NCBI RefSeq assembly: GCF_018145875.1
Contig: NZ_JAGSSV010000002.1
Location: forward strand, 62,001-126,000
Source of the DNA: Marinomonas vulgaris
GTDB lineage: Bacteria; Pseudomonadota; Gammaproteobacteria; Pseudomonadales; Marinomonadaceae
DNA: 64,000 nucleotides
Reading direction: 5' to 3'
In this document: positions 15,207 through 42,943 of the stretch, piece by piece
Layout of the letters: every line of letters begins with the position of its first letter
How positions within the stretch are numbered: position 1 is the first letter of the stretch
Notes under the pieces: model-generated
Database searches by the model: none
Told to the model about the DNA's origin: nothing
The model's input: the letters and a program-made list of their open reading frames with translations, nothing else
Translations under genes and position numbers: made by a program

Positions 15207-17885
15207 ATGGGTGAATTAGCCAGAGAAATTATTCCCGTCAGTATCGAAAATGAACTGAAGGGATCTTACCTTGATTACGCCATGAGCGTAATTGTTGGTC
15301 GAGCATTACCTGATGTACGTGATGGGTTGAAGCCTGTTCATCGTCGTGTTTTATTTGCGATGAACGAACTTAAAAACGATTGGAATAAACCGTACAAAAA
15401 ATCGGCGCGTATCGTCGGTGATGTGATCGGTAAATATCACCCACATGGTGATTCTGCCGTTTACGATACGATTGTTCGTATGGCGCAGCCTTTCTCAATG
15501 CGTTACACCTTGGTTGACGGACAAGGCAACTTCGGTTCTGTCGATGGAGACAGTGCTGCTGCGATGCGTTACACCGAGATTCGCATGGCGAAGATTTCCC
15601 ATCATCTCCTTATGGATCTTGAGAAAGAAACCGTGGATTTTGTGCCGAACTACGACGGTACGGAATTTATGCCAGAAGTGCTGCCAGCACGCGTACCTGG
15701 TTTGCTTGTCAATGGATCAGCCGGTATCGCCGTTGGTATGGCGACCAATATTCCGCCCCATAATTTAGGTGAAATTATCGATGGCTGCTTGGCGGTTATT
15801 GATAACGCTGAGGTGACAGTTGATGAGCTTATCGAGCACATTCCTGGTCCAGATTTCCCAACAGGCGCTTTTATCAATGGTCGTGCTGGAATTATTGAAG
15901 CTTACAAAACGGGCCGTGGGCGTATCTACATGCGTGCTCGTCACCACTTTGAAGATATGGAAAAAGGCAATCGCCAAGCTATCGTCTTTACTGAAATTCC
16001 TTATCAATTAAACAAAGCCAAAGTGATCGAAAAGATCGCTGAATTGGTGAAAGAGAAAAAGCTCGAAGGCATCAGTGAGCTGCGTGACGAATCTGATAAA
16101 GATGGTATGCGTATCGTGATAGAGCTACGTCGTGGCGAAAATGCAGATGTGGTTGTCAATAACATATTTGCGCAAACTCAGTTGCAGTCTGTGTTTGGTA
16201 TTAACATGGTGGCCTTGGTTGATGGCCGTCCGCAGTTATTGAATCTTAAGCAGATTCTTGAGTGCTTTGTTAAGCACCGCCGTGAAGTGGTGACCCGTCG
16301 TACTATTTATGAACTTCGTAAAGCGCGTGAGCGTGGTCATATTCTAGAAGGTTTGGCGGTATCTCTAGCGAACATCGATCGCGTGATTGAGTTGATTCGT
16401 ACTTCGCCAACCTCGGCTGAAGCCAAAGAAAAAATTGTCAGTGAGTCGTGGGAGCCGGGTAACGTGGTTGCCATGCTTGAGCGCGCAGGCGCAGACGCTT
16501 GCCGTCCAGATGACCTAGAAGCAGGTTATGGATTTGTTGACGGTGCTTATCACTTGTCTCCAGACCAAGCGCAAGCCATTTTGGATTTGCGTCTACATCG
16601 CTTAACGGGCTTAGAGCACGATAAATTACTGGGCGAATACAAGGCATTGATCGAAACGATCGGTGAGTTGTTGAATATTTTGTCTAATCCTGATCGTTTG
16701 ATGGAAGTCATTCGTGAAGAGTTAGAAGAAGTTCGCGATACCTTCGGCGATGCTCGCCGTACTGAAATTCTGACGTCTCGCCAAGATCTGACCATTGCCG
16801 ATTTAATCGACGAAGCGCCTATGGTGGTGACCATCTCTAACACTGGCTACGCCAAATCTCAGCCGTTAGAAGAGTATCAAGCTCAGCGTCGTGGTGGTCG
16901 TGGTAAATCGTCAGCTAGCATGAAAGACGAAGACCACATAGAACATCTATTAGTGACCAGCAGTCATGACACCATCATGTTGTTCAGTAATTTTGGTAAG
17001 GTCTACTGGTTGCGCGTGTTTGAAATTCCTGTTGCAAGTCGCGGCGCGAAAGGTCGCCCTATTGTTAACTTGTTGCCATTGCGCGAAGGTGAATCTATTT
17101 CGGCGCTCTTGCCGCTGCCAGTGGTTGAGGCCATAGAAAGCGATGACGACGTCGAAGAGGTGTCAGATGAAGCCTTGGTCGAAGCAAGTAGTTACATCTT
17201 TATGGCTACTGCGAACGGCACGGTGAAGAAAACCGCCATGCAACATTTTGCTCGTCCTCGTTCGACAGGTTTGATTGCCTTAAGTCTTGATGATACTGAC
17301 GAGTTGGTCGGTGTTTCTGTGACCAATGGCGAAAACGACATTATGTTGGTGTCGTCATCTGGTAAGACTATTCGCTTTAAAGAGTCCGATGTTCGTCCTA
17401 TGGGTCGTACAGCAGCGGGTGTACGTGGTATTCGTTTGGGTGAAGATGCGAAAGTTGTGTCTTTAATCGTTCCACAAGAAGGCTTGGCTGTCTTGATGGC
17501 GTGCGAAAACGGCTATGGCAAACGTACCTCGGTTGACGATTTCCCTGTGTATGGTCGTGGTGGTCAAGGGGTGATTGGTATTCAGGTATCTGATCGTAAC
17601 GGGCCAGTTATCGGCGCGACTCAGGTAGATGAAACCGATGAAATTATCTTGATTACCGACCAGGGAACCTTGGTTCGTACTCGAGTGACCGAAGTATCTT
17701 GTCAAGGACGTAACACCCAAGGTGTGACCTTGATTCGTCTAACCAACGACGAACATCTTGTTGGTATCGAGCGTGTCGTCGAAGATGATGAGCATCTTGA
17801 TGAAGACGATGTTGATGATGTGGCTGAAGAGCAAGTTGTGAATGATGGTGATGAAACGCCTGATATCACAGACACAGACGTATAA
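15207..17885 (+). CDS. gyrA: DNA gyrase subunit A
   Basis: The 892-residue subunit is the cleavage and wrapping component of the gyrase A2B2 complex, which introduces negative supercoils. The catalytic Arg121-Tyr122 is in MRYTEIRM and the winged-helix region is around [18 protein letters not shown]. Quinolone-determining positions are Ser83 and Asp87, the sensitive wild-type residues. The GyrA box QRRGGRGKS starts the C-terminal beta-pinwheel, confirming gyrase rather than topoisomerase IV. An acidic insertion lies near residues 640-660, and the C-terminal tail of about 35 residues is strongly acidic. It has its own perfect terminator. Confidence 0.98.
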
Positions 17886-19149: not shown

Positions 19150-20271
19150 ATGTCGAATTCAAAACAGGCTGTGCCAGAGACGCTGCCATTATTGCGCGAT
19201 CGCATTGATTCCATTGACTCGCAAATTCAGGTGTTGATCAATGAGCGTGCACGCTGCGCTCAAAAAGTCGCTGAAGTGAAATTGGCTGAGCAAGGCGGTG
19301 AGGCCGTGGTGTTTTACCGACCAGAGCGAGAAGCACAGGTGTTGCGTCGCGTGATGGAGCGCAATGAAGGGCCGCTTGGCAACGAAGAAATGGCGAAAAT
19401 TTTCCGCCAAGTGATGTCGTCTTGCTTGGCGCTTGAAAAGCCGATGCGCATTGCGTTTTTGGGGCCAGAAGGTACCTTTACGCAGCAGGCAGCATTGAAG
19501 CACTTTGGTAAGTCCATCATCAGTGCGCCCATGGCGGCCATTGATGAAGTGTTTCGTGAAGTGGAATCAGGCGCGGCGAATTATGGTGTTGTGCCCGTTG
19601 AAAATTCGACAGAGGGTGTGGTGAATCACACCTTAGACAGTTTCCGTGATTCGCGTTTAAAGATCTGCGGCGAAGTGGAAGAACGTATACATCATCACTT
19701 GCTGATCAGTCCAAACATTCATGCGGAAGATGTGACGCACATTTATTCCCATCAGCAGTCTTTGGCGCAATGTCGTGCTTGGTTAGATCGCTACTGGCCC
19801 CATGTTGAGCGCGTTGCGGTGAGTTCCAATGCTGAGGCGGCTCGCTTAGCGGCTGATGCGGGTCGCAGTGGCAAAGCCATTGCTGCCATTGCGGGTGAAG
19901 TGGCCTGTGAACTGTACGGCCTAACGAAAGTGTCAGCAAACATAGAAGATCGTCCTGATAACACCACGCGCTTCTTGATCGTCGGTCATGAAGATGTACC
20001 GCAAAGTGGTAAAGATAAGACTTCGTTATTGATCAGTGCGAAAAATGAGCCGGGTGCCTTGTATCACTTGCTTGAAGCTTTTGAGCGTCATGGTGTTGAT
20101 ATGACGCGGTTAGAAACGCGCCCATCCTTGATGAGTCGTTGGGGATACATTTTTTACATCGACTTCGTTGGGCATTATCTTGATGACGCTTGCCAAGTAG
20201 TCATTGAAGAGCTGCGTGAACGTGCTTCAGAGGTTAAGGTATTGGGTTCTTACCCCGTCGCTGTGCTCTAG
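19150..20271 (+). CDS. pheA: Chorismate mutase / prephenate dehydratase (P-protein)
   Basis: The 373-residue bifunctional enzyme makes phenylpyruvate from chorismate. Its AroQ chorismate mutase helix bundle spans about 10-95 (LLRDRIDSIDSQIQVLINER). The prephenate dehydratase domain is at about 100-280, starting IAFLGPEGTFTQQAA and including the DNTTRFLIVG motif. The ACT regulatory domain is at about 290-365, with KNEPGALYHLLEAF and the ESRP-like ETRPS, so phenylalanine feedback is expected. It lies 52 bases after serC. In pseudomonads hisC follows pheA; here the TyrA-AroA fusion follows directly. Confidence 0.96.
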   Translation: MSNSKQAVPETLPLLRDRIDSIDSQIQVLINERARCAQKVAEVKLAEQGGEAVVFYRPEREAQVLRRVMERNEGPLGNEEMAKIFRQVMSSCLALEKPMRIAFLGPEGTFTQQAALKHFGKSIISAPMAAIDEVFREVESGAANYGVVPVENSTEGVVNHTLDSFRDSRLKICGEVEERIHHHLLISPNIHAEDVTHIYSHQQSLAQCRAWLDRYWPHVERVAVSSNAEAARLAADAGRSGKAIAAIAGEVACELYGLTKVSANIEDRPDNTTRFLIVGHEDVPQSGKDKTSLLISAKNEPGALYHLLEAFERHGVDMTRLETRPSLMSRWGYIFYIDFVGHYLDDACQVVIEELRERASEVKVLGSYPVAVL

Positions 20272-20315
20272 CCCTTGATTGTGAGGGCGAATCTTACTGG
20301 TTTGATGTCGCTAAT

Positions 20316-22544
20316 TTGAAAGAGTGTTGTGCTTTGACGGGTGAAGAAAAAAAGAAATTCGGTAATGTCATGATCATAGGGCTTGGCATGATAGGCGGCT
20401 CTTTTGCTAAGGCGTTAAAAGAGCGTGGCTTAGCGACGTTATACGGTGTTGATCGTCGTGAAGGCGAATTGGCGCTGGGCGTGTCAACAGGAGTGATTGA
20501 TTATCCTGCGCAATTAAACGCTGACTATCTGTCTAAAATGGACGTGATTGTGTTGGCGACGCCGGTTCGAGCAATGGAGTCGGTTGTGGCTGATTTAAAG
20601 CCGTTTTTGTCCGAAAAAACTTTGGTGACCGATGTGGGTTCTACCAAGGGAAGTGTGGTGGAAGCGGTGCGTCGTGTTTATGGTTTTATGCCATCAAACT
20701 TTATTCCTGGTCACCCCATTGCTGGGGCGGAAAAAAGTGGCGTGCTGGCGTCTAACTCTAGTCTGTTTGAAAAGCACATGGCCATTGTGACGCCCTTGCC
20801 TGATAGCAACCCGGTATTGCTGGATAAGTTACATCGACTTTGGCGAGCGGTGGGTTCTGATGTGGTGAGCATGGATGTGGAGCATCACGATCATGTGTTG
20901 GCGTCATCCAGCCATTTACCACATTTACTGGCTTACACACTGGTAGACGCTTTGGCCAATGGAGAGCGTAGTCAAGATATATTTAAATTTGCGGCGGGTG
21001 GCTTCCGTGACTTTACACGTATTGCTTCAAGCGACCCTGTTATGTGGCGCGATGTTTTTATGGCCAATAAAGACGCCACATTGGCTACTTTAGACCATTT
21101 TACGGACCGATTAGCGGATATGCGTCATGCCATTGAGCAGGGTGATGGTGCCAGTATGTTCGGTGTCTTTACCAGGGCGAAATCGGCGCGAGATCATTTT
21201 TTACGCTTATTAGAGCAGCGTACCCTTGGCTCCATCAAAGAGGTTCGACCTGTTTCCATTGCTGTGTTACCTGCTTCAGTCATAAAAGGGCAAATATCTT
21301 TGCTGGGTGACAAATCTTTGTCACATAAAGTGATTACGATAGCGGCGCTCTCAGAAGGTGTGAGTGATCTACGCAATATTGATCTTGCTGGTGATGTGAA
21401 AATTACCATCCAAGCTTTTCGCGACATGGGTGTGGTTATCGAAGAGGCGGCCAATGATCATTTGCGCGTACATGGTGTCGGGTTACGTGGTTTAAAAGCG
21501 CCTATTGCGCCGATTAACGTGCATCAGTCTAGAGAAACCTTGTACCTTTTGTTGCCAGTGTTGGCAGGGCAGTCTTTTCCTGTTTCCGTAACGGCAGAAG
21601 GCGAATTGCTGAATCAGTCGATGAAAGATGTGTTTTCTGTGGTTCGACAGATGGGTGGCAAGGTGGAATCGGCGGTTGAAGATTGTTTGCCTGTGTATTT
21701 GGAGCCAGGCGACGCGCTCAATTTGTCCGTGACTCTGCAAGCGGGCTCTGAACGGCTTCGTATGGCCGCTTTGTTGGCGAGTTTGTACTCGCCTGAAAAA
21801 AGCCAAGTGGTGCCGTTTTTGTCGGGGTTATCTCACTGCGAAGTATTGCTTCGACAATTTAAAATGTCGATTGAGTCTAGTGAAGCAGGGTTGACCATTT
21901 TACCTTCTCCGTTAACGGCCACTAACGTGGTGTTGACTGGGGATGAATATGAAATGGCTTGGTTGGTGTTGTTGGCTAATATTTTACCAGGTTCTGAGTT
22001 AATCATTGAGAATGTGGGTTTGGATTCTGTATCGGTTGCCTTGTTGATGTTTATGGCGTCGATAGGTGCAGATGTGTCTTTGCCGCAACAGAGTGCATCG
22101 GGTTTGTATGAGGGTTCTGTTTCAGCGGGTTTTGCCGAGTTACACGCTTTCACTTTGAGCGCGGAGCAAAGTTATCAATTCAGAGACGAGTTGCCTTTGT
22201 TGTGTGTAGCAGCGGCGTACGCAACAGGTCAGAGCTGCATTAAAGGCATAAATGCATTGCCTTATTACTACGAAGACAGAGTATTGGGTTTGATTGATGC
22301 CCTTGAGCATATGGGTCTTTCAGTCACTTACGAGAAGGGCGACTTGTTTGTTCAAGGTGGTCTTCCACAGGGTGGAGAATTAGACAGCGCTGGCGACGAT
22401 AAAGTGGCATTGGCGATGATTGCCCTGGGGGCTCGCAGTCATGCTTTGACAAAAGTGCATGATTGCCAAAAGTTATTAGAAGAATTTAATGAGTTAGAGG
22501 GTGTTGCTAGGCAATTAGGTTTTCATTGCACAGTAACGCAATAG
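20316..22544 (+). CDS. tyrA: TyrA-AroA fusion: prephenate dehydrogenase with a motif-eroded EPSP synthase domain
   Basis: The 742-residue fusion starts with a normal TyrA domain (about 17-300): VMIIGLGMIGGSF, GHPIAGAEKSGV, the HHDHVLASSSHLPH catalytic His region and GFRDFTRIA. It makes hydroxyphenylpyruvate for tyrosine. Residues about 318-742 have EPSP synthase length and fold cues (LLGDKSLSHK, FRDMG, RDELPLLCVAAAYA) but lack most active-site motifs. GNSGTT is replaced at 401-409, the RPM Arg at 433-436 is gone, SAQVKS reads SERLRM at 478-483, KESDR reads YYEDR at 651-655, and DHR reads DDK at 694-696. I infer AroA activity is doubtful. The reading frame is intact. The start is uncertain: TTG 20316 is the longest, TTG 20334 has AAAGAG upstream, ATG 20370 is the first Met. 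Confidence 0.88.
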   Translation: MKECCALTGEEKKKFGNVMIIGLGMIGGSFAKALKERGLATLYGVDRREGELALGVSTGVIDYPAQLNADYLSKMDVIVLATPVRAMESVVADLKPFLSEKTLVTDVGSTKGSVVEAVRRVYGFMPSNFIPGHPIAGAEKSGVLASNSSLFEKHMAIVTPLPDSNPVLLDKLHRLWRAVGSDVVSMDVEHHDHVLASSSHLPHLLAYTLVDALANGERSQDIFKFAAGGFRDFTRIASSDPVMWRDVFMANKDATLATLDHFTDRLADMRHAIEQGDGASMFGVFTRAKSARDHFLRLLEQRTLGSIKEVRPVSIAVLPASVIKGQISLLGDKSLSHKVITIAALSEGVSDLRNIDLAGDVKITIQAFRDMGVVIEEAANDHLRVHGVGLRGLKAPIAPINVHQSRETLYLLLPVLAGQSFPVSVTAEGELLNQSMKDVFSVVRQMGGKVESAVEDCLPVYLEPGDALNLSVTLQAGSERLRMAALLASLYSPEKSQVVPFLSGLSHCEVLLRQFKMSIESSEAGLTILPSPLTATNVVLTGDEYEMAWLVLLANILPGSELIIENVGLDSVSVALLMFMASIGADVSLPQQSASGLYEGSVSAGFAELHAFTLSAEQSYQFRDELPLLCVAAAYATGQSCIKGINALPYYYEDRVLGLIDALEHMGLSVTYEKGDLFVQGGLPQGGELDSAGDDKVALAMIALGARSHALTKVHDCQKLLEEFNELEGVARQLGFHCTVTQ

Positions 22545-22562: not shown

Positions 22563-23246
22563 ATGATCAACCAAGGCCCGGTTATTACGATTGATGGTCC
22601 AAGTGGTGCGGGTAAAGGCACAGTCAGTCAATTAATCGCAGAAAAACTGGGATGGCACATACTTGACAGTGGTGCTCTGTATCGACTGTTGGCGCTAGCT
22701 GTAGCGCACCATGGCATGTCGGCTGACGATGTAGATACGCTTAAGGTATTGGCAGAGCATCTGGATATTCAATTTCAACAAACTGAACAAGGTGCGATAG
22801 ATATCGTGCTGGAAGGCGAGGTGGTTACTCAGGCCATTCGCACAGAAGAGGTAGGTAATTGCGCGTCTAAATTGGCTGCAATCCCTGCAGTGCGTGAAGG
22901 CTTATTATTACGCCAGCGTGCTTTTTCTCAGTCGCCTGGTTTGGTGGCGGATGGTCGTGATATGGGCACCGTAGTGTTTCCTTCCGCGCAGATTAAAATA
23001 TTTTTAACCGCCTCTGCTCAAGAGCGTGCCCAAAGGCGTGCTCAGCAATTGCAGCAAAAAGGTGAAACTGTTAATCTCGAAGCACTTATTAAGGTCATTG
23101 AGGAGCGAGATGAGCGAGACGCAAACCGAGCAATTGCGCCTCTTGTTCCAGCAGCTGGCGCTTTAGTGATTGACAGTACAGAATTGACCATAGAGCAGGT
23201 TGTCGAGATCATTTTTGCTGAAGCAGTAAAAGCGGGTCTGGTATAA
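22563..23246 (+). CDS. cmk: Cytidylate kinase
   Basis: The 227-residue kinase phosphorylates CMP and dCMP with ATP. The P-loop is [17 protein letters not shown] (residues about 9-25). [13 protein letters not shown] follows, then [22 protein letters not shown] for CMP binding and the lid with RRAQQL, and [17 protein letters not shown]. Length equals E. coli Cmk. It follows the TyrA-AroA fusion after 18 bases with AGAGGAAA upstream of the ATG, so it belongs to the same transcript. Its 3' end contains a promoter-like sequence for rpsA. Confidence 0.97.
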
Positions 23247-40678: not shown

Positions 40679-42943
40679 TTGAGTGAATTGTCAAATTTTG
40701 AGTCGAATGAAACACTTTCATTAAAAGACTACACCGAAAAAGCGTACCTTAATTATTCTATGTATGTGATTTTGGATCGAGCCTTGCCACACATAGGCGA
40801 TGGTTTGAAGCCAGTTCAGCGCCGAATTATTTACGCGATGAGCGAATTGGGTTTAAAAGCCAGCGCCAAATACAAAAAGTCAGCTCGTACTGTGGGTGAT
40901 GTATTAGGTAAGTTTCACCCCCACGGCGACAGCGCTTGTTATGAAGCCATGGTGTTGATGGCTCAGCCGTTTTCTTATCGTTACCCATTAGTGGACGGTC
41001 AAGGGAACTGGGGCGCACCGGATGACCCTAAGTCCTTCGCGGCGATGCGTTATACCGAATCGCGCTTGTCAAAATACGCCGATGTTTTATTGCGTGAAGT
41101 CAGCCAAGGCACCGTTGATTGGGTGCCAAACTTTGACGGCACCTTGCAAGAGCCTTCCGTGTTACCGGCGCGCTTACCGAACTTATTATTAAATGGCACG
41201 ACAGGAATCGCCGTAGGCATGGCGACGGATATTCCACCGCATAATTTGCGTGAAATTGGTGGCGCCTGTATTCATTTACTGAACAACCCTAAAGCTGAGT
41301 TGGATGATTTACTCAACTTTGTACAAGGCCCTGATTTTCCAACCGGTGGTGAAATCATTACGCCGCGTAGCGACATAGTAAAGCTTTATGAAACAGGCAA
41401 AGGGCAAATCAAGGCCAGAGCCCGTTTCACAGTAGAAGAAGGTGAAGTGGTGGTAAATGAGCTGCCGCATCAAGTGTCGGGCAGCAAAATCCTTGAGCAA
41501 ATCGCTGCGCAGATGCAAGCGAAGAAGCTGCCTATGGTTGTAGATTTGCGGGATGAATCGGATCATGAAAACCCCACACGATTGGTCATAGTACCCAAGT
41601 CAAATCGTGTGGATATTGATGCGGTGATGACTCACTTATTTGCCACCACAGATCTCGAAAAATCCTATCGTGTGAACATGAATGTGATTGGTCTGGATGG
41701 ATTGCCGCAAGTTAAACCGTTGAAAAACTTTTTGTCTGAATGGCTGCGTTTTCGTATCGATGTGGTGCGCCGTCGTTTGCAATTTCGTCTTGATAAGGTG
41801 ATGAACAGACTGCATATTTTAGAAGGCTTGTTAATCGCCTATCTAAATATTGACGAAGTGATCGACATTATCCGCACTGAAGAAAAGCCAAAAGTAGAGT
41901 TGATGACTCGGTTTGGTTTAACAGACATACAAGCCGAATCCATACTTGAGTTAAAGTTGCGCCATCTTGCTAAGCTTGAAGAAATGCGCATCAAGGGCGA
42001 ACAGGATGAGCTGGAAAAAGAGCGTAAAAAACTGGAAGGCTTGTTGTCTTCAGATCGTAAACTGAAAAAGCTTATCAGCGATGAAATTCAAGACGCCATC
42101 GACGCGTTTGGTGACGAGCGTCGCACGCCCATTGTGTCGCGAAAAGAAGCTCAAGCGTTTAGCGAAGAAGACCTATTGTCGAATGACCCCATCACCGTAG
42201 TGATTTCCAAACTAGGCTGGATTCGAGCTGCTAAAGGTCACGATGTAGATGTTGAAGGTCTAAGTTATAAATCTGGCGATGAATTTTTAGTCAGTACTAA
42301 GGGGCGTTCAAATCAAACCTTGGTGTTGTTCGCGTCGAATGGTCGAACGTATTCGATTAAAGCTCACACCTTGCCATCGGCGCGCGGTCAGGGAGAACCG
42401 ATTACCGGTCGCATATCCCTAGAGAAAGACGCCACTATTGTTTCTGCTGTATTAGACAGCGAAGACGCTCATTATCTGGTCGCCAGTGACGCCGGTTACG
42501 GCTTTGTGGCACAGCTTAAAGATTTGTATGCCAAAAATAAAGCTGGTAAAGCGACCTTAACCTTACCCCGTGGTGCTCGAGTGATGTCGCCTGTTTTGGT
42601 TACGAATCCACAACTGGGTCGTGTGGTGGCGATTTCCAACGAAGGGCGTATGCTGGCGTTTGATGTGGCGTCTTTGCCGCAAATGGCGAAAGGCAAAGGC
42701 AATAAAATGTTGAGTATTCCGAGCAACCGAGCCACAGAACGAGAAGAGCTGGTGGTGGCACTGGCTTGCGTTCAACCAGATGATCTATTAACCGCCAATG
42801 CAGGTAAGCGTTTTATTTCGTTTGCGCAAAAAGAGTTAGAGGAATATCTAGGAGAACGAGGCCGTAGGGGGTTAAAACTTCCGCGAGGTTTTCAGCGTAT
42901 CGACAGCCTTGAAGTTAAAACAGGTGAAGGCAAATCGAATTAA
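40679..42943 (+). CDS. parC: DNA topoisomerase IV subunit A
   Basis: The 754-residue subunit decatenates daughter chromosomes as part of ParC2ParE2. The catalytic Arg-Tyr125 is in [10 protein letters not shown] and the winged-helix region is [18 protein letters not shown]. Ser85 and Glu89 correspond to the quinolone-determining E. coli Ser80 and Glu84 and are wild type. The C-terminal pinwheel lacks a GyrA box, as expected for ParC. The start is TTG 40679; the only early ATG would delete conserved YLNYS. The AAGGAA ribosome site can pair with TTCCTT that runs into the start codon. parE is not adjacent. Confidence 0.97.

Follow-up and report, generated by a model that had tools for sequence, protein, structure and literature searches.

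The AroA half of the TyrA-AroA fusion protein of Marinomonas vulgaris has, judged from its residues, nearly certainly no EPSP synthase (EPSPS) activity, and it is probably retained as a pseudo-EPSPS domain with a structural or regulatory role on TyrA in cis. The corresponding gene was analysed in a stretch of 64,000 nucleotides, termed the window, and the fusion gene and its parts lie on its forward (+) strand. A pseudoenzyme of preserved length and frame had been proposed in an earlier note made from the letters alone. This proposal agrees with the combination found here: the catalytic motifs are lost, the predicted fold is kept, and the domain is maintained by purifying selection.

The fusion gene and its locus

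The longest open reading frame of the tyrA-(pseudo)aroA fusion gene begins with TTG and spans positions 20316–22544 (742 aa). It contains no internal stop, and the fusion is full length and in frame, as had been stated for the AroA half in the earlier note. The start of the gene is uncertain, with TTG at codon 1, TTG at codon 7 and ATG at codon 19 as candidates. By Pfam, residues 30–284 belong to TyrA (PF02153 and PF20463, both above cut-off) and residues 321–720 to EPSP synthase (PF00275). The prephenate dehydrogenase half (residues 15–295, positions 20358–21200) contains the motifs GxGxxG, HPIAG, SHLPH and GGFRDFTR. The claim that TyrA keeps its catalytic motifs was therefore correct; these residues do not vary across 40 aligned fusions, which comprise dead and other AroA halves. 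The pseudo-EPSPS half (residues 318–742, positions 21267–22541) yielded 137.7 bits with PF00275 (cut-off 22.8 bits) and 151.3 bits with the aroA model TIGR01356, which is below the curated cut-off of 287.25.

The complete protein scored 904.9 bits with NF011381 and passed the cut-off of 902 by 3 bits. NF011381 / PRK14806, "bifunctional prephenate dehydrogenase/3-phosphoshikimate 1-carboxyvinyltransferase", represents the TyrA-AroA (TyrA-AroF) fusion of upper-gamma Proteobacteria. The window's fusion has the two-domain architecture of this family and resembles it in length and in the gene neighbours described for such fusions. Members of the family proper carry enzyme names for both halves; in the window, the AroA half has no EPSPS active site, and a second AroA backs it up. 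Two intact active sites, as the bifunctional name implies, were not found: the TyrA motifs are kept and the AroA residues are lost.

The fusion is flanked by pheA (19150–20271) and cmk (22563–23246), and the local gene order is gyrA, serC, pheA, tyrA-aroA, cmk, rpsA; all these names were assigned by eye. No hisC (hisHb) ORF was found between pheA and tyrA in 19150–22544. This differs from the ancestral order in the accessible text of Song et al. 2005 (PMC1173090), which has hisC (hisHb) at this place. An ORF of 754 aa at 40679–42940 is by eye parC-like and would code for a second type II topoisomerase A subunit, gyrA being located at 15207–17885.

Active site of the AroA half

Seventeen diagnostic positions were scored after alignment with E. 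coli AroA and relatives. In E. coli numbering, these are K22, S23, R27, N94, G96, T97, R100, R124, S169, Q171, D242, D313, K340, E341, R344, H385 and R386. The AroA half of the window has kept six of the 17 residues (K22, S23, S169, D242, D313 and R344), which correspond to Lys333, Ser334, Ser478, Asp543, Asp624 and Arg655. The earlier note had listed Lys333, Ser334 and Asp624 as the only remaining ones. These three are indeed kept, but the restriction to them does not hold, as Ser478, Asp543 and Arg655 are present too. Asp694 (D384, not among the 17) is also kept. A misalignment or artefact as the source of the low score was ruled out: 38 intact relatives reach 17/17 in one alignment, and the residue mapping is therefore no alignment accident.

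The altered motifs are distributed along the whole half. In GDKSLSHK (residues 331–338, positions 21306–21329) Lys333 and Ser334 are kept, and the R27 position is occupied by Lys338. Residues 401–413 read NVHQSRETLYLLL and lack GNSGT; here, HQSRETLY (403–410, positions 21522–21545) replaces the GNSGTxMR loop and places a Tyr at the R100 position, where 39 of the 40 fusions from the genus carry Tyr or His. Within ELLNQSMK (430–437), NQSM (433–436, positions 21612–21623) stands in place of (K)RPM, with Gln434 at the R124 position. Residues 476–485 are AGSERLRMAA, where SERLRM (478–483, positions 21747–21764) replaces SAQVKS. Residues 646–657 read NALPYYYEDRVL and contain LPYYYEDR (648–655, positions 22257–22280) instead of LRVKESDR; K340 has become Tyr651 and E341 has become Tyr652. 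In this segment, Pro649 (38/40) and Glu653 (40/40) are newly fixed in the genus. Finally, DHR is replaced by DDK (694–696, positions 22395–22403) within DSAGDDKVA (690–698). The direct reading thus matches what the earlier note had reported for this half, namely the absence of GNSGTT at 401–409, the missing Arg of RPM at 433–436, the change of SAQVKS to SERLRM, the Tyr652 in place of the Glu of KESDR, and the change of DHR to DDK.

We regard it as barely conceivable that the domain still makes EPSP through a rearranged active site. Lys333, Ser334, Ser478, Asp543 and Arg655 are kept and would be compatible with such a residual activity, as would Asp624, which the window and 16 of the 40 genus genomes have kept. 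Against this stand the alteration of all of R27, R100, R124, K340, E341, H385 and R386 in the window, residues that are required in E. coli AroA, and an intact second AroA in the same genome.

A standalone AroA in the same genome

The earlier note had predicted that a second, intact aroA must exist elsewhere, and such a gene was found. The genome (3.45 Mb, 56 contigs, completeness 100) was searched with PF00275, which was positive in 14/14 control genomes. There are three matching places, all on the contig of the fusion: the fusion itself, a MurA-like protein with a weaker match to aroA (L002), and a standalone AroA (L001). The latter comprises 430 aa, has 17/17 active-site residues, lies about 184 kb from the fusion, and shares 66% identity with E. 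coli AroA over 419 residues.

A whole standalone AroA with 17/17 residues is present in 34 of the 35 genus genomes examined, including the one of the window. In the exception, G011, the standalone aroA (L089, G011:C45:83820-85608) is frameshifted at about codon 114, with 92–96% identity to the copy of a congener on either side of the frameshift. This is either an assembly error or a recent event. If it were real, the strain would be without EPSPS, since the fused domain is also dead. The strain should then require aromatic amino acids, and the case would count against the explanation proposed here.

State of the fusion across the genus

The fusion is complete in all 35 genus genomes, and in each of them the AroA domain is below the TIGR01356 cut-off (129–203 bits). 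Five further fusions from the genus were added for reading. All 40 consist of 724–753 aa without an internal stop, and their AroA domains have kept between four and eight of the 17 active-site residues. The NF011381 cut-off of 902 bits was passed in 13 of the 35 genomes, that is, in the window's genome and 12 others. The best 80 of 554 loci matching the domain include 12 Marinomonas records and Maribrevibacterium harenarium (35–74% identity); the remaining 67 of these 80 show 28–33% identity. Judged by the named matches among the best 80 of 554, the putatively dead fused domain is genus-wide, occurring in Marinomonas and a close relative.

Predicted fold

AF2 modelling of the AroA domain with 26 sequences resulted in a mean pLDDT of 93.8 and a pTM of 0.92. 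The top fold matches of the predicted models (Foldseek on the domain, VIA-align on the full model) are EPSP synthases, plus one designed protein (4n3p). VIA-align gave a Z of 46.0 and an rmsd of 2.0 over 418 residues for 3rmt, and a Z of 45.7 for 5bs5 from A. baumannii; the best MurA reached a Z of 37.5 on the full model. The model is therefore that of an EPSPS fold (Z 46) with changed motifs, and the catalytic residues were not recovered by the structural comparison suggested earlier. Among the closest solved folds are 5bs5 and 5buf, two EPSP synthase structures from A. baumannii (Z 45.4–45.7 over 426–430 residues); they share 26% identity with the window's domain and were compared by fold. 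Their chain numbering of 312–756 suggests that this EPSP synthase also comes from a fusion. In the full-length model of the window's protein (pTM 0.61), linker residues 303–309 have a pLDDT below 50. The orientation of the halves is unsure in this model, and thus no TyrA/AroA interface can be named.

Selection and new constraint

Pairwise codon maximum likelihood was applied to the 15 closest pairs of the genus, with no genome used twice. The dN/dS values were 0.003–0.046 for the TyrA half (15 pairs), 0.035–0.127 for the AroA half (14 of the 15 pairs; dS was not estimable for G011-G222), and 0.009–0.071 for the standalone AroA (12 pairs). Most values for the AroA half are rough, because dS exceeded 1 in most of the 15 pairs; the four pairs with the lowest divergence (dS < 0.8) gave 0.118–0.127. 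For the AroA half, ω = 1 was rejected in 15/15 pairs (2ΔlnL 78–344). The dead half is under purifying selection in the genus. The comparison of both halves that had been proposed earlier shows that the dead half evolves faster than TyrA and far below neutrality. Furthermore, the AroA/TyrA divergence ratio is 2.53 in the genus (5–95% 1.94–3.26; n = 40 genomes) compared to 0.64 in intact fusions (5–95% 0.53–0.82; n = 37 genomes), so that AroA is the faster-diverging half in the genus and TyrA in the intact fusions.

Constraint is unevenly distributed over the dead half. It is strongest at residues 318–421 (positions 21267–21578), with dN/dS of 0.011–0.134 (14 of 15 pairs estimable) and a mean majority fraction of 0.78–0.84 in 40 genomes. 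The least constrained part comprises residues 422–540 (dN/dS 0.047–0.201, 14 estimable pairs), and the mean majority fraction in the segments covering 422–600 is 0.46–0.58 versus 0.64–0.84 in the rest of the half. Such a pattern might also arise from a passive dependence, in which TyrA would have become structurally addicted to the domain for solubility, for the linker or for dimer packing; the domain would then be inert ballast that transmits no regulatory signal. This is possible, if somewhat doubtful. It is in line with the selection on the dead half, which is real yet weaker than that on TyrA, with the lower conservation of segments 422–600, and with the loss of the domain in other lineages. 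What argues against it is the position of newly fixed residues near the active site, which suggests a specific site and not bulk.

These residues were identified by means of 164 positions at which 36 or more of the 38 intact domains agree; since the intact set spans the order and the dead set the genus, the raw conservation levels of the two are not comparable. The same residue is found in at least 38 of the 40 dead domains at 34 of the 164 positions, and 75 are now below 75%. At 10 of the 164, both groups are conserved with differing residues: V329L, G343A, G354N, G414P, F549W, I623R, T640S, R649P, S653E and V720L. Six of these 10 lie at most four residues from a listed active-site position, compared to 125/436 positions overall (Fisher p 0.037, one weak test). 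The purifying selection and the newly fixed residues indicate that the dead half is no decaying pseudogene. The changes are spread over the domain, as the 75 positions below 75% show, and are not surgical at the active site; this counts against a role in cis.

The new residues could also be explained by a neofunctionalisation, in which the old cleft would bind a new ligand or catalyse a new reaction independently of TyrA. The conversion of LRVKESDR to LPYxxEDR with the fixation of Pro649 and Glu653, the Tyr or His at the R100 position, and the persistence of the predicted fold fit this explanation. It is nevertheless an unlikely one, as by eye no common new motif was seen among the eroded domains G254, G410, G247 and G404 of other families.

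Pattern across the order

In a survey of 390 genomes of the order, an E. coli-type AroA (match with E < 1e-160) was found in 79. In these 79 genomes, the fused domain is eroded in 18 from the genus and in 23 others (1–16/17), intact in three (G041, G090 and G134), absent in 32, and unclassed in three (G181, G244 and G302). All 44 eroded and intact domains were scored, and absence was judged from the end of the match and a short open frame; part of the 32 domain-less genomes may never have had the fusion. The fused domains of family f37 retain 7–16 of the 17 residues, with one at 17, and those of f6 retain 3–16. In L291 (G181:C49:12-2090), a single match extends over TyrA and AroA parts with four in-frame stops; this is probably an adjacent pair of tyrA and E. 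coli-type aroA.

In six genomes of genus g44 of family f44 (L212-L216, L245) the domain consists of about 300 residues, is more than 100 residues shorter, and has 1–5/17 residues, the score varying with the alignment used. Their C-terminal region, which is barely recognisable as EPSPS and occurs beside an E. coli-type AroA, is a more extreme case. These shortened domains and the graded series of the other families, which runs from 16/17 down to loss, would be expected if the Marinomonas domain were a pseudogene-like passenger in ordinary decay before deletion. We consider this highly unlikely for the genus, where ω is far below 1, where 40/40 frames are open although many pairs approach saturation at synonymous positions, and where the fold is confidently predicted. 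For f37 genus g37 and f6 genus g46, ω = 1 was likewise rejected in 20/20 pairs (2ΔlnL 210–366), with many dS values saturated. In f44, five of the six genomes were compared and the dN/dS estimates are meaningless.

All 35 sole AroA copies that were scored have 17/17. They comprise 16 from a nearest-family sample, after exclusion of G045 (a fragment) and G036 (split between contigs), and 19 hand-picked strong matches, a choice that biases towards intact copies. An E. coli-type AroA is missing from 311 genomes. Of these, 287 gave a fused-type match at E <= 1e-160. The remaining 24 include G350 and nine genomes of f39, whose AroA is of a third kind (E 1e-58 to 1e-77), G229 (f39, unclassed), the broken or partial G045, G097, G102, G139 and G193, the lower-scoring G143 and G275 with motifs present, and G395 with a weak match only. 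The last five of the 24 gave no match at any strength. In a small alignment, the SAQ columns were shifted by one, even in the intact control G054, which scored 15 there; these scores were set aside and the motifs were checked. SAQ, KE[ST]DR, GN[AS]GT and DHR are all present in G362, G065, G143 and G275. The DKSxSHR pattern is unmatched in G143 and G275, yet the K22, S23 and R27 positions are kept. G380 contains unread bases. All five were treated as low-scoring AroAs of genomes that have no E. coli-type copy.

Against the E. coli-type model, the third-kind AroAs reach E values of 1e-58 to 1e-81; they occur in 14 genomes, namely nine of f39, four of f21, and G350. A search for a strong fused-type AroA was negative in the f39 genomes concerned (G072, G108, G136, G186, G208, G288, G340, G357 and G405) and in G350. 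In contrast to a strict rule linking a spare AroA to erosion, G240, G280, G317 and G333 of f21 have a strong fused-type match, judged by match strength only, beside a third-kind AroA. A spare AroA also does not always bring erosion as far as the residues indicate, since the fused domains of G041, G090 and G134 have stayed at 17/17.

Eight tyrA-only loci were read, one of them in a genome without an E. coli-type AroA. In four (G039, G047, G106 and G235) tyrA ends at most 25 bp from a cmk-like ORF, and a clean deletion of the domain is therefore an available path. The gap is about 85 bp in G185 and about 145 bp in G274; the remaining two loci are G331 and G350. The tyrA ORF of G350 (L234) has just 315 aa and resembles the loss reported for P. 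syringae.

A TyrA tree was calculated from 78 rows, in which 9 of the 40 genus genomes were retained and the third-kind AroA of G350 was counted as a second copy. On this tree the second AroA needs nine changes, and erosion or loss needs 10. Among six independent pairs on well-supported branches, 4.9 on average agree and none opposes; with a median p of 0.0625, this test is not significant alone. A tree of 30 E. coli-type AroAs consists of several groups with weak deep branches. The copies of f1 and f37 cluster in it and may stem from one acquisition. Among the genomes examined, erosion or loss of the domain accompanies a spare AroA, and has apparently done so more than once.

Discussion

It is plausible to assume that the ancestor carried an active TyrA-AroA fusion, which is common in the order, and that an E. 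coli-type aroA, only distantly related, entered the lineage, presumably by transfer. The correlation across genomes suggests that the EPSPS activity of the fused domain would then have become dispensable; its shikimate-3-phosphate/PEP site, by its sequence, was lost. The domain has been retained at full length under purifying selection with newly fixed residues, whereas several other lineages have deleted it. Acting in cis on TyrA, it may serve as a scaffold for folding or oligomerisation, as an allosteric domain for prephenate dehydrogenase, or as both. Its removal would impair tyrosine synthesis. Other lineages have lost the domain, so TyrA can work without it; its retention here therefore reflects a lineage-specific dependence or use. 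A more specific version, which we put forward as a speculation that is probably not correct in full, is that the old EPSPS cleft is an allosteric sensor of tyrosine, prephenate or another aromatic compound for TyrA in cis, and that the route from aroA replacement to reuse was followed repeatedly within the order, with its stages present in living genera. The alternatives discussed above overlap with the role in cis, and their probabilities do not sum to one.

The tyrA-aroF fusion of upper-gamma Proteobacteria has been described by Song et al. 2005 (PMC1173090). According to the accessible text, the fused EPSPS domain of P. syringae was disrupted after the gain of a stand-alone aroF, probably foreign, and the authors proposed that the remnant might turn into a regulatory domain. 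About 200 residues of that remnant are lost, whereas the Marinomonas domain is full length, has a predicted fold, is under selection and occurs genus-wide. Marinomonas and Oceanospirillum are not mentioned in the text of PMC1173090 as far as accessible. The prozyme of trypanosome AdoMetDC, as described in the accessible part of PMC5201418, is likewise a dead enzyme homologue that is retained to control an active enzyme. It is a paralogue of the enzyme it controls, whereas the active enzyme in the window is fused to a dead one that belongs to another reaction. In the open-licence literature, no EPSP synthase described as a pseudoenzyme was found, and nothing pertinent, judged by title, on the EPSP synthase of Marinomonas; among the open-licence matches listed, only PMC1173090 was pertinent by title and start of the abstract. 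What is new here is a pseudoenzyme domain joined to an enzyme from its own pathway, in a family without a described pseudoenzyme in the open-licence literature found.

The living genomes form a natural series of stages, from domains that are intact beside a spare copy, over those with 11–16/17 residues and those with 4–8/17 under selection, to those that are gone. This series makes the suggestion of 2005 (PMC1173090, accessible text) that an orphaned domain may become a regulatory domain directly testable. For the window and the 12 other genus genomes that pass the NF011381 cut-off, the name "bifunctional" probably misdescribes one half of the protein, and this misnaming bears on models of the shikimate pathway and on surveys of the glyphosate target.
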